Of a DNA stretch of 64,000 bases, positions 50,603 to 63,813 are shown piece by piece. Position 1 is the first letter of the stretch. The number at the start of each line of letters is the position of its first letter. The notes beneath the pieces are model-generated. The model ran no database searches. It saw only the letters and a program-made list of their open reading frames with translations, and was not told where the DNA came from. The stretch comes from Nitratiruptor sp. YY09-18 (GTDB lineage Bacteria > Campylobacterota > Campylobacteria > Campylobacterales > Nitratiruptoraceae), in NCBI RefSeq assembly GCF_016593235.1, contig NZ_AP023065.1:1240001-1304000 (forward strand). Reading direction: 5' to 3'. Made by a program: the position numbers and the translations under genes.

Positions 50603-51163
50603 GCCCTCGCTCACTTAAAATCGGGTCATGGTTGTAATTTTCATTGGGATTCGACAAAAAAGACGGCAACGGAGTGCGGTCTCAATCCCCTTAAAATCGG
50701 GTCATGGTTGTAATCTTCGTGGCCATTGCAAGCCAAAGCTTGTTACGGCGTCTCAATCCCCTTAAAATCGGGTCATGGTTGTAATGTTCACAATGGTAAA
50801 AGAAGGCTTATTTAGAAGAGATGGAAGTCTCAATCCCCTTAAAATCGGGTCATGGTTGTAATAGCTCAACCCGTACAGTGAAAAACACCTTAAAGTCGAT
50901 GAGTCTCAATCCCCTTAAAATCGGGTCATGGTTGTAATAGCTCAACCCGTACAGTGAAAAACACCTTAAAGTCGATGAGTCTCAATCCCCTTAAAATCGG
51001 GTCATGGTTGTAATATATGATCATTGCGTACTGCGCAAAGATTGCGGTCTCAATCCCCTTAAAATCGGGTCATAGTTGTAATATGGTCTATGAAGGAGGT
51101 AAATATATGGGGAATGTAAGTGTTCGCGTCTCAATCCCCTTAAAATCGGGTCATGGTTGTAAT
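50603..51163 (-). CRISPR. CRISPR array, 8 repeats of 36 bp and 7 spacers
   Basis: Repeats start at 50603 (degenerate), 50679, 50750, 50827, 50903, 50979, 51047 and 51128. Read on the minus strand a repeat begins ATTACAACCATGACCC and ends GGGGATTGAGAC; ATTGAGAC fits the 8-nt 5' handle of type III crRNAs, so transcription is right to left. Spacers are 40, 35, 41, 40, 40, 32 and 45 bases from left to right. The fourth and fifth spacers (50863-50902, 50939-50978) are identical. The repeat at 51047 has one change at 51074. The first 12 plus-strand bases of the leftmost repeat are degenerate, as expected for the trailer end. Confidence 0.97.
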
Positions 51164-51334: not shown

Positions 51335-51607
51335 TTATCGAATAACAAATATTTCATCTAAATCAAAAGCTACTCCCATTGCTATCCCTTTATCTTTGAT
51401 TTTATAGATTCTCACATCATCCTCTTTCGAATCTATAAGTTCATTTAATCGATCTGCAATGGTATAGATTCTCTCTTTTGTCACACTTTTTGCAATAAAT
51501 ACAGAGTACTGGATCCTTATACACTCCCCTTCCAAATATCTTGCAACTCTTCTTAATCTTTTTGGATCGCTTATATCGTAGCAAACAAGATAATCATTTT
51601 TTTGCAT
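51335..51607 (-). CDS. cas2: Cas2 (second copy, leader-proximal)
   Basis: A 90-residue Cas2. YLVCYDISDPKRLRRVARYL is the family's first strand and helix with the conserved Asp, and GECIRIQYSVFIAKSVTKERI the second block (QxSVF). DVRIYKIKDKG gives the later strand. Cas2 forms the dimer core of the Cas1-Cas2 integrase. The ATG overlaps the end of the Cas1-N ORF by 14 bases; there is only a weak ribosome site (GAGTAG), which suggests translational coupling. Confidence 0.92.
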   Translation of the reverse strand: MQKNDYLVCYDISDPKRLRRVARYLEGECIRIQYSVFIAKSVTKERIYTIADRLNELIDSKEDDVRIYKIKDKGIAMGVAFDLDEIFVIR

Positions 51608-51831
51608 AGTTTACTACTCTACCTAATATATATCCATGAACATCGATAAGATAGACTCTAAAAAAATTTGTAAGATAAAATAGATCATGCAAAGAGATAG
51701 TAATATTGGTTCCAAGATATAAGGCATAAATCTTTTTAAATGATATAACAAATTCACCATCACTTTTTTTTATAATTATATAACCATCACCAACTTCTAT
51801 TTTTGCATTTGATTTGATGATGAGTTTTTTT
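51594..51831 (-). CDS. free-standing Cas1 N-terminal beta domain, in -1 frame after cas1
   Basis: An open frame of about 79 codons after a seven-A run. The sequence KKLIIKSNAKIEVGDGYIII, then FKKIYALYLGTNITIS and VYLIDVHGYILGRVV matches the Cas1 N-terminal beta-sandwich and aligns with the N-terminus of the full Cas1 upstream, but no C-terminal nuclease domain follows. There is no ATG, GTG or TTG in this part; the nearest ATG is at 51911, 115 bases inside cas1. The cas1 frame passes through A_AAA_AAC (plus-strand 51824-51830), a canonical -1 slippery heptamer leading into this frame. It may be made as a Cas1 extension, from the internal ATG, or be a remnant of a second cas1. Confidence 0.7.
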
Positions 51832-52693
51832 CGATAATATCTCTCATTTTTGCAATTTTCTGTTTGATGAGAGACTCTTCGCTTTCTATGAAAATTTTGA
51901 GACTTGGCCATAATTTTTTCCTTCCATTTTGTGTAAGAAAGACTCCATTTTTATTTTTGGTAAAGTCATTAACAATTATATTTTTGTCCAGAAACTGATA
52001 TGCAACAAACCGATCTATATCTGCTCTAAAAAATTCTAAAATATCTGAACTCAAAGCCATATGATCCCGAAAAGAGGTATGCAAATACCCTATAAGAGGC
52101 TCAAAACCATAAAAATGCAACCATGTAGCTATCTCAAAATAAAAGATAGTATAGATATAAGATAGGAGAGCATTTACAGGATCAAGTGGTGGATTTTTGC
52201 TCCTTTGTCCTTTTGCTAATATTTTTGGGAAAAGTGAAAAGTAGTGCTTAAAATACTCTTTTGCTAAACTCCCCTCTATACCTAAAAGCATCTCAATACT
52301 TTTTGCATTTTTTACATCTTTTAAAATCTTATTTTTTTCAAAACCAAGTTTAAAGTGGTGCAGCGTCTCATACGACTTTTTTATCTTTACTGAAAGTATA
52401 TATTTTGCAATTTCCACTCTATTTCTTAATGCATGGTATTGAGCCTCTTTGATATGGGCATTTTTGATATATCTCTTTTGTATATGGATAAACTCTTTTG
52501 GATTGGTAGTTACAACTAATATTGCAATACTGTTTTTTGCTAATTTAGCAATGTCTTTAAGTGAAATATCCACTTTGCTATAAATAATAAGATAATCTAT
52601 AGCTTTAAGAGTAATTTTAATTTCATTATCTACTATCAAAATATTGTGCTTGACCTGCAAAGATGAGGACTTATCTATAATTACTCTATTCAC
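51797..52693 (-). CDS. cas1: Cas1 integrase
   Basis: A 298-residue Cas1 that inserts new spacers together with Cas2. The N-terminal beta domain is residues 1-75. The metal site is present: Glu140 (LLGIEGSLAKEYF), His205 (LIGYLHTSF) and Asp217 (SSDILEFFR). NPPLDPVNALLSYIYTIFYFEIA is the family core. The last residues (EKNSSSNQMQK) follow a slippery A-run. It overlaps the upstream cas2 by 4 bases and the Cas1-N frame downstream. Confidence 0.95.
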   Translation of the reverse strand: MNRVIIDKSSSLQVKHNILIVDNEIKITLKAIDYLIIYSKVDISLKDIAKLAKNSIAILVVTTNPKEFIHIQKRYIKNAHIKEAQYHALRNRVEIAKYILSVKIKKSYETLHHFKLGFEKNKILKDVKNAKSIEMLLGIEGSLAKEYFKHYFSLFPKILAKGQRSKNPPLDPVNALLSYIYTIFYFEIATWLHFYGFEPLIGYLHTSFRDHMALSSDILEFFRADIDRFVAYQFLDKNIIVNDFTKNKNGVFLTQNGRKKLWPSLKIFIESEESLIKQKIAKMRDIIEKNSSSNQMQK

Positions 52694-52965
52694 AATACTA
52701 TTGTTCCTTTATCAAAAGGTAACTGCTTTGCCTTTCCGAGCAAAATCGCATTTTTTTCAATTTCAATTATGTTTATTTTGTCTTCATCACTATTCATTCT
52801 AAAAAACAGCCTTTTTGCTAGAATTTCGAGCTCTTTTTGAGAAAGATAACTCTCAATCGCACTCTTTTGCCCACCAAAAGCAAAAGAGTAAGCGATTTTT
52901 CGTACTCTATAGAGGCGCTTTTTGTCTGCAATATCGTAGCAGATAAGATAAAGCCTACTCTTCAT
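52690..52965 (-). CDS. cas2: Cas2 (first copy, upstream of cas1)
   Basis: A 91-residue Cas2-family protein: YLICYDIADKKRLYRVRKIAY with the conserved early Asp, then GGQKSAIESYLSQKELEIL (QKSxxE block) and DKINIIEIEKNAILLGK. It differs clearly from the copy at 51335-51607, so the two are paralogues and not a recent duplication. It starts inside the end of the lipoprotein gene (11-base overlap) and is coupled to cas1 by a 4-base overlap. Confidence 0.9.
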   Translation of the reverse strand: MKSRLYLICYDIADKKRLYRVRKIAYSFAFGGQKSAIESYLSQKELEILAKRLFFRMNSDEDKINIIEIEKNAILLGKAKQLPFDKGTIVL

Positions 52966-60577: not shown

Positions 60578-62944
60578 CTAACTCCTTCTTTGTTTGTATA
60601 TAAATTTACTTAAAACAATTTTTGTCTCACTTGGATATTTTTCTATCATTTCATCGATAGTTGCTAAAAAATCTTTTTCTAACTCTTTGGATAATTTATT
60701 TTCCAAATTTCTTCTATAAGAATAAGCTAATTTAGATTTCCAGATGGTAGATTTAACATCACCATCTTGTTTAACTTTTTTGCTCATTTCACAAAACTCT
60801 AACAATCTATATAAAAATGCCGTAGGAATGCCATCTTTTAGTGAGTTTTCCATATCTTGTAAAGTATCATATAAACCTAAATCATCAAGATAGTCACTCC
60901 ATTTAACTCTCTCTTTGAATATAGTAAGAGCATCTTTACCTTCAAGCTCTTTAGAATATTCTAAAAATTCTTCAGCAATATGAGCTATAAACTTAACAGG
61001 TTTATTTGGTTTTGTCATAGATAAACCAACACTAAAGCTAAGAGGAGAACCTTTTGCAAACTTCATAAATTTTTCTCTTACTTCAGTACTTAAATCCAAT
61101 ACTTCATCCCATGCACCAAGAATAAACAAATCATCTCCTCCGGCAAAAACAGTATAGGTGTTGGGATATCTATTTTCCATCAGATACGGAACATAGACGC
61201 TAAAAAAGTAATCTACCATTCTTGAAAAAAAGTTGTACTTTGCAAAAGATTCTGTTACACCACTATGGCGAATAAATTGTCCCATATTATCTACATCACC
61301 CTTAAGTGCCATAAGGGCTTCTACACCAAATTCTCTTTTTTTATTGGTAATCCCGTCTTTGACACTCAATGAAGCCAGATTCTCAAATGTTAAAATATCT
61401 GGTATCTCTTCATTTTGACTTTCAAGAAATTCGATCTCTTGCTTACTTAAATTTTTTTTCAAAGCAACATAAGAGCTTATCTCCCACTTTGCAAAACCGC
61501 TAAAATCATCACTTTTAGAAATATCAAAAATTGCAACTGTATTTTTAAGACTTTTTGGATCATTATCTACAAATTTCAAATAAAAATTATTAAATATATT
61601 GATGGAAGTTTCATCTTTTGTAATAATGAGATATTTTTTCTTGGTAAGCTCTTTACCAATATCTATAAATCTTTGACAACTTTTACATACTCTTTTTTTT
61701 TAAAATATTATTTTCTTTACCTACTCTATGTTTACAGATAAAACATTGATTTTCATTTGTAATGTTTTTATCCCACTTTAAATCATAATCTTTTTTTAAA
61801 AGATCAAATTTTTTTAGCTTTGTTTTTTCAACTTCAATTCCCAAATCTTTTCTTAATCTATTTTGGTATCTTCCTTTTTCTATAAAATCAAAAAGTCCAC
61901 ACTCTACAAACGATATGCCTACACCTGTTTGACCAAAAAATTCTTTAGCAAAAAATTCATTGAGTCTTGATTGAATATTTATAAGCTCATTTTTTATTTC
62001 ATTACTATTTGGTGCAAGAATTTCAAATTTTCCTGCACTATCATTAATAATTGATAATTTGCTAAGTTGTAACTCTTCTACTACATATAAAGCAATTACT
62101 TTTGTCAAGATTTGCACATATGCAGACTTTCCACGCAACACTTTTGTAGCAGCTTTTGCCTCTACTTCGTTAAAAATAAAGTCTTGAATACCAAAAAAAT
62201 CTCCATTTATTAAAATAAATTCATTTTCTTCTTTATAAGATTTGGTTTTTCTGTAGTAATTGATAATATTTTCTCTTTTTTCTAAATCGAGTTTACTTAT
62301 AGCAGCGGCAAAAACAGCTGTTGTTTTTAAGTGGTCATAAAGAGGAATATTTGCCTTTGTTACAGGAAAATCCCTATTTTTAAAAGATGTCGCAGATGGT
62401 ATAAATGTGGTATATTTTTTTAGCAGATATTCTAAACCTATAAAATCTGTTGTTTGATTACCATTAGTTTTTGTAGAGTTTTTAAATCTTTTTCAAAATA
62501 TTCCCAAAGCTCTATATACTCATTTTTATCGCTTTTCTCTTCAGCATAAAAAATAGAATGGGGAGAGAGCTTATCTATTTTATACTCTTTTGTTTCATCA
62601 AAAAGCCCTTTGAGTCTTTGTTTTTTAAAATCTTTAAACTCAACACTTTTATTGTAATTTTCAAAAGTCTCTCGTTCAAATCCACTTGCCATTCTATCTG
62701 CAGCCGCTATTATCCATGAATTTTCATCCGAGTTTTCATTTACAATATGGTGTTCATAAGCATACTGATGATAGTTTTGCAAATCATTAAAATAATCTTG
62801 CAAAATCTGAGCCGTATACGCACTATGTTTATATCCATAATTTTTACTTTTAAAAGGCTCTCTTAATGGTATCTCTGCCCTCTGCCCAAACTTCCCAATA
62901 TCATGCAACAGTCCCGCAAGTGCCATCAAGTCAATATCTCTCAT
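60578..62944 (-). pseudogene. csm1: Cas10/Csm1 signature subunit, broken by two frameshifts
   Basis: The 2367-base locus corresponds to a normal Csm1 of about 788 residues but lies in three frames. Part 1 (62944-62438) is the HD nuclease domain (LLHDIGKFGQR; His14, Asp15). Part 2 (62492-61683) continues with LYDHLKTTAVFAA and the zinc-type NQCFICKHR. Part 3 (about 61700-60578) has CKSCQRF and the cyclase palm motif FAGGDDLFILG (GGDD). Adding one base at the five-A run 62479-62483 and removing one at the nine-A run 61693-61701 restores a single frame. As given, no full Cas10 is made without slippage. Confidence 0.88.
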
Positions 62945-63748
62945 CGCAAATCCTCTACTTCAATTTTCCCAAGCCCAAAGCTTCCAAGTTTGCCAACCCC
63001 TACGATCTCACCATATTTTAAAAGTTCATACGTTTGTTTATCAAGCCCATCAACAACTATTTCTCCCACTATGCCTCCAACTTTCATTTTTGTTTTTTGT
63101 CTATTTGAATATCTTGAAAAATCCATAAATTTTAAATCTTTTTTTACAACTTTTGGAAACTTTTCAATTTTTTCATCAATTCCATCAAAAAAAAGCCTCT
63201 TCTTATAAATTGAAACTAAAATATCCTTTATATCAAGGTCGCAAAAATTTTCCCTCCCTCTTTATCCTGAGAGGCGTTACAAATCTTATCTTTACTTTTG
63301 GACAAAATTCGTCGCATTTAAAATTTTTTGGCTCTGTTTTTAGATTCTTAAACTCATTTTCAAACACAACCTCACCACCTAGATAAATCTTTTCTATCTC
63401 ATACTTTTTTCTATTTACCCCAAGTCCTTTTTGTGTTAGCATCCTATAAAGAGCACTTAATACATACGGATACTTTTGGCACGCTTCATTAAAAAGATAC
63501 AAGGAAAAATCAAGTTTTTTTGGCTTTAGTGTAAAATCGAACCTAAACTTGTGAAATCTATTTTTCTCTTCATAAAACTCATAATAGATACAGTTATCTT
63601 TTGCAAAGCAAGTTGAACATTCAAAAGAGGGATTTATGCAGACTACATCTTTGAGATTCACTCCAAAAGCACCACGTAGCATGGAGCCTATAAAGGGAGG
63701 TAATTGTGAAAAATTTCTTGCTAACACATTTATTTTAAAATATTTCAA
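62941..63748 (-). pseudogene. cas6: Cas6 pre-crRNA endoribonuclease, broken by one frameshift
   Basis: Part 1 (63748-63233) starts with TTG (KYFKINVLARNFSQLPPFIGSMLRGAFG) behind AAAGG. It includes a Cys set (CINPSFECSTCFAKDNC) and RFVTPLRIKREGKF. Part 2 (about 63247-62941) continues DLDIKDILVSIYKKRLFFDG and ends with the Gly-rich loop EIVGVGKLGSFGLGKIEV of Cas6. Removing one base in the A4T5 run (63243-63251) joins them into about 268 residues. The end overlaps the cas10 start by 4 bases (ATGA). A working Cas6 may be encoded elsewhere. Confidence 0.85.
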
Positions 63749-63813
63749 AAAATTACCTTTAAATTTACAATTAATTTATTTTACATTCAAAAAATTTACA
63801 ATAAACTTAAATT
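63749..63813. promoter_or_regulatory. divergent promoter region between cas6 and the third cas2
   Basis: This 65-base gap is nearly all A and T and separates divergent genes, so it should contain both promoters. The minus-strand cas6 ribosome site AAAGGT is at its left side. No clear operator symmetry was seen. Confidence 0.45.

Follow-up and report, generated by a model that had tools for sequence, protein, structure and literature searches.

A stand-alone gene for the Cas1 N-terminal domain in two-Cas2 CRISPR cassettes of Campylobacterota

The cas1N locus and its product

The window, a 64,000-nucleotide stretch of the Nitratiruptor sp. YY09-18 genome, carries on its minus strand a set of type III-A-like effector genes (with matches to HD, Csm1 domain B and the Cas10 palm, and RAMPs). 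Next come a protein that weakly matches the Csx1 CARF, a WYL/WCX protein, a small open reading frame resembling a lipoprotein, and cas2a. From cas2a the minus-strand order continues with cas1, a short frame that we call cas1N, cas2b and a CRISPR array. The features of this cassette are as follows.

52690–52965, minus strand: cas2a, a divergent Cas2 upstream of cas1, with a GGQKSA motif (PF09827, E 3.4e-9)
51797–52693, minus strand: cas1, 298 aa, full length, with E140, H205, D217 and E220 present (PF01867, E 2.3e-50)
51919–51923, minus strand: Shine-Dalgarno sequence AAGGA, 7 nt before ATG 51911–51909, spelled by the cas1 codons G-R-K-K-L-W
51594–51911, minus strand: cas1N, the stand-alone Cas1 N-terminal-domain gene, 105 aa from ATG 51911, comprising a 25-residue lead and then the domain
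51597–51836, minus strand: the Cas1 beta-sandwich domain proper of cas1N, 80 aa modelled
51824–51830, minus strand: A_AAA_AAC heptamer in cas1 phase, proposed as a slip site and judged incidental
51335–51607, minus strand: cas2b, an ordinary Cas2 downstream of cas1N, overlapping it by 14 nt (PF09827, E 1.5e-20)
50614–51163, plus strand: CRISPR array beyond cas2b, 8 repeats (repeat search)

Two features of the surroundings may be recorded separately. Two adjacent repeat-spacer units at 50826–50977 are identical over 76 nt and represent a duplicated spacer. The csm1 (Cas10) gene is broken into three frames, one shift lying near 62450 and another, caused by an A run, near 61690. A break near 63240 also interrupts the Cas6-like open reading frame that precedes csm1, the broken csm1/Cas6-like region spanning 60578–62959 and 62944–63775 on the minus strand. 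csm1 is intact in the relative G013 (L011), and the breaks represent either real decay or homopolymer sequencing errors.

The preliminary description of this DNA had read the frame after cas1 as a Cas1 beta-sandwich domain without a nuclease domain, and profile comparison, hhalign, structure prediction and PDB matches all bear this out. cas1N aligned with the PADLOC Cas1 profile over positions 2–76 (E 5.7e-5) and with the Cas1 of the same cassettes by hhalign (E 5e-5). An AF2 model of the 80 domain residues, built from a 31-member alignment, had a pLDDT of 94 and a pTM of 0.81. The top Foldseek matches of this model were Cas1 proteins (best E 3e-6, TM 0.84 by query), and a second structural alignment placed all of it on Cas1 residues about 1–84 (best Z 12.2), the best 50 PDB entries listed all being Cas1 with Z between 8.2 and 12.2. 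Pfam and NCBIfam scans of the window protein gave no Cas1 match, and 2 of 12 homologues matched Pfam Cas1 weakly (best E 0.046). The helical catalytic domain that carries the E/H/D residues of PF01867 is absent; the protein ends after its N-terminal domain. Since the profile, the AF2 model and the Foldseek and PDB alignments all lead to Cas1, the cas1N product is, by its predicted fold, the Cas1 N-terminal beta-sandwich and nothing more.

Conservation and translation start of cas1N

A profile search of 397 Campylobacteria genomes returned 12 true members of the cas1N family, and 85,000 genomes searched with the Cas1 of the cassette as query yielded further loci, giving homologues at 36 distinct Campylobacterota loci in total. 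The gene order cas2a-cas1-cas1N-cas2b holds in every locus with whole genes, as far as the contig extends. The cas1N frame is intact at all 36 loci, with identities to the window copy of only 11–63%. The same-genus relative G013 is 65% identical. Against this relative, dN/dS of cas1N outside the cas1 overlap is 0.15, and the synonymous change of cas1, 0.66 over the whole gene, drops to 0.41 where it overlaps cas1N, as expected for a doubly used stretch. Judged from its sequence record, cas1N is a real conserved gene under purifying selection and no chance frame.

cas1N is nevertheless no universal requirement of the cassette. About ten related loci are without it, cas1 there abutting cas2b, and its presence changes at least six times on a quick Cas1 tree, which includes a poorly extracted outgroup sequence (L084) and serves for a rough loss count only. 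Because the gene has been repeatedly lost, it is dispensable in some lineages. Searches of viral contigs and plasmids found no relative of the cas1N protein, nor of the full-length second Cas1 described below. Two irregular loci were seen during these searches. At L010/L019 (G055), cas1 is without its normal N-terminal part beside an opposite-strand IstA-like transposase open reading frame, with cas1N and cas2b intact. The cassette of L065 (WFMP01000118.1), labelled Candidatus Gracilibacteria, is nearly identical to that of the Campylobacteraceae MAG L060, and its contig is probably misbinned.

As the preliminary description had pointed out, cas1N has no ordinary start codon outside cas1; its first in-frame start is ATG 51911–51909, inside that gene. 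We compared the start regions of the 36 loci. In 26 the domain begins at a local ATG, GTG or TTG, which in many of them overlaps the stop codon of cas1, and in the remaining 10, the window included, there is no local start and the frame is open back to an ATG inside cas1. In those ten loci the ATG is formed by conserved Cas1 Leu/Ile-Trp codons (xxA TGG), and AAGGA, AAGGAG or AGGAG stands 6–7 nt before it, likewise spelled in Cas1 codons. The script located the Trp motif in nine of the ten, the motif finder having missed it in several loci, of which L047 is one without a local start, and L047 was settled from its sequence. The combination of Shine-Dalgarno sequence and Trp-codon ATG occurs in none of the 26 loci that have a local start. 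Fisher's test gives 1e-7 for this association with kinship uncorrected, a value that overstates independence because the ten loci fall in about three Cas1 groups. Initiation at 51911, listed in the preliminary description as an alternative, is thereby favoured, and the simplest reading of the comparison is that cas1N is very probably translated from its own Shine-Dalgarno sequence and ATG 51911. Sequence conservation of the 25-residue lead is low, so that the exact start could differ.

A full-length second Cas1 in Nitrospirota and Desulfobacterota

Three loci from the cassette-Cas1 scan, two of them from Nitrospirota and a third with the label Proteobacteria, show the order cas2a-cas1a-cas1b-cas2b, in which the cas1b product is a second Cas1, about 270 aa long. 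A profile search found cas1b in roughly 27 of 246 Nitrospirota genomes (L142–L168) and in 10 of 297 genomes of Desulfobacterota, the phylum of Desulfoluna (L169–L178); most of these loci have cas1a and two cas2 genes alongside. Cas1b is homologous to Cas1a along its length (hhalign E 4e-17). The catalytic residues E, H, D and E are retained in all 29 Cas1a proteins, and in 5, 12, 28 and 1 of 29 Cas1b proteins, respectively, by counts that depend on the alignment: Cas1b has lost the GxEG glutamate in 24, the histidine in 17 and the second acidic residue in 28, whereas one aspartate stays in 28. An AF2 model of full-length Cas1b, from a three-sequence input, was poor (pLDDT 58) and was set aside.

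A complete, catalytically degenerate second cas1 is thus found in related cassettes at the position that cas1N occupies. Like cas1b, cas1N lies between cas1 and cas2b with a cas2a of the same clade upstream, the Cas2a proteins of Campylobacterota and Nitrospirota grouping in a single clade that excludes every other Cas2 of the tree (support 100/96). Its domain is, however, of ~80 aa where Cas1b has about 270 aa, and the 397 Campylobacteria genomes contained no full-length Cas1b. By hhalign, cas1N matched the 29 Cas1b proteins over residues 1–78 with E 2.5e-4, Campylobacterota Cas1 with 2e-4 and Nitrospirota Cas1a with 0.02.

These comparisons make it likely that cas1N is an inactive second Cas1 (cas1b) reduced to its N-terminal domain. 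As the simplest history we infer a shared four-gene cassette, the inactive Cas1 of which was trimmed in Campylobacterota to its N-terminal domain and afterwards disappeared from several lines. Because hhalign links cas1N modestly to Cas1b and Campylobacterota Cas1 is equally close to cas1N, it is also possible on this sequence evidence that the neighbouring cas1 was duplicated and then truncated.

Proposed role of cas1N and relation to known systems

Cas1 protomers pair largely via their N-terminal domains. In published structures, the C-terminal strand of Cas2 extends a sheet in the N-terminal domain of a Cas1 (PMC6620040), and active and inactive Cas1 subunits occur together in each integrase (PMC12259127). 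The cas1N product would retain just the pairing and docking surface of Cas1 and, because the N-terminal domain provides both the protomer contact and the site of the Cas2 strand, it could couple the catalytic Cas1 to Cas2a/Cas2b as a dedicated non-catalytic partner. An integrase that joins it with Cas1, Cas2a and Cas2b would be heteromeric and possibly asymmetric. By this reasoning from known integrases, we give about even odds to cas1N being such a partner, with its pairing with Cas1 and its effect on integration both inferred. The existence of the gene suggests a memory-making complex of unequal parts. For the whole explanation, that cas1N is a gene with its own start, a reduced second Cas1 and a non-catalytic partner, we estimate a probability of roughly 0.6.

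The main rival is that cas1N is an inhibitor or regulator that would hold acquisition back by competing with Cas1 for the surface at which Cas1 dimerises or for the tail of Cas2. An isolated pairing and docking domain could be dominant-negative, and the dispensability of cas1N in some lineages would fit such a role, whereas its Nitrospirota counterpart is a whole protein in a fixed two-Cas2 cassette and so resembles a structural subunit. On balance we consider an inhibitor unlikely.

Less probable still is a decaying remnant of a second cas1 without present function. The homology of position with full-length cas1b and the repeated losses would agree with decay; against it stand a frame kept intact in 36 distinct loci despite low identity, the dN/dS of 0.15 and start sites upheld within cas1 codons. 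Of the suggestion in the preliminary description that the frame is a second-cas1 remnant, the derivation therefore survives, given the complete degenerate cas1 of Nitrospirota and Desulfobacterota, but the decay does not, as cas1N is selected and conserved.

The preliminary description had favoured −1 slippage at the heptamer, by which the cell would make, alongside normal Cas1, a longer Cas1 carrying a second N-terminal domain. Programmed −1 frameshifting of the dnaX type uses an A-run slippery heptamer in phase, and the sequence elements are indeed present in cas1: GAA AAA AAC in its frame places A_AAA_AAC at 51830–51824, and a −1 slip there leads into the cas1N frame, continuing with CTC 51824–51822. 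The heptamer is phase-correct in the window and in G013, within an almost unchanged stretch, and the RNA downstream of it folds slightly better than shuffles (MFE −12.1 kcal/mol, z −1.6). Unlike a dnaX-type signal, however, it is not conserved, the phase-correct heptamer with a −1 relation being limited to these two among 34 testable loci. The next-closest relative, L041, whose Cas1 is 74% identical, reads the non-slippery GAA AAA AGT and yet retains the Shine-Dalgarno sequence and ATG. Moreover, in five loci of the Sulfurimonas type (L060, L061, L065, L069 and L074) cas1N overlaps cas1 in the +1 frame, beyond the reach of a −1 slip. Nor would a frameshift product need an open upstream frame, yet each of the ten loci lacking a local start keeps this frame open as far as the ATG, where cas1N has a good initiation site of its own. 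In-frame A_AAA_AAN sites are also common in the A-rich window, with 56 per 20,903 codons of long open frames. Since the heptamer is limited to two loci, the initiation site is kept and +1 loci exist, slippage is neither needed nor conserved, and a programmed frameshift is very unlikely, although a minor slip product is possible. The comparison of start sites across loci can thus settle a suspected frameshift. A sequencing error in the A7 run was rejected, as G013 and L041 share this relation between the two frames.

A second, diverged Cas1 is already known at the level of profiles, because the PADLOC model PDLC01185 ('Cas1, diverged variant, second in the loci') exists and Cas1b matches it (L081 and L149, E 3e-7 and 4e-6). 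cas1N resembles this model in that there are two Cas1 per locus, but differs in giving no match to it and in being without the C-terminal two thirds. Searches of the open-access literature, several of them dominated by papers on Cas12 and Cas13, gave no paper that describes a Cas1 N-terminal domain standing alone and none that studied a catalytic and degenerate Cas1 pair with two Cas2 as a system, an absence that carries little weight. The Cas1 of N-terminal domain only and its start inside cas1 were likewise absent from the libraries and papers searched.

Known Cas1-Cas2 integrases are built from identical protomers that must assume catalytic and non-catalytic roles, and a recurring question is how a symmetric Cas1-Cas2 complex inserts spacers in one direction. 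We tentatively propose, as a reading that we hold somewhat short of even, a widespread class of integrase that is heteromeric by design, with a catalytic Cas1, a dedicated non-catalytic Cas1 and two different Cas2, in which the non-catalytic Cas1 would be whole in Nitrospirota and Desulfobacterota and of N-terminal domain only in Campylobacterota. If this is true, built-in asymmetry could set spacer orientation or prespacer choice, and a separate non-catalytic Cas1 of 80 residues with two kinds of Cas2 would let the roles be dissected genetically.

In comparison with the Cas1 integrase family (PF01867), the whole 80-residue cas1N domain superposes on Cas1 residues about 1–84, but it comes without the helical catalytic domain and as a separate gene beside a complete cas1. 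Like the type II-A and I-F Cas1-Cas2 integrases (PMC6620040, PMC12259127), the cassette would have a protomer in a non-catalytic role and a Cas1 N-terminal domain on which the Cas2 tail docks. In those systems, however, one Cas1 gene gives both protomers and Cas2 is a homodimer, whereas here these parts are encoded by separate genes.
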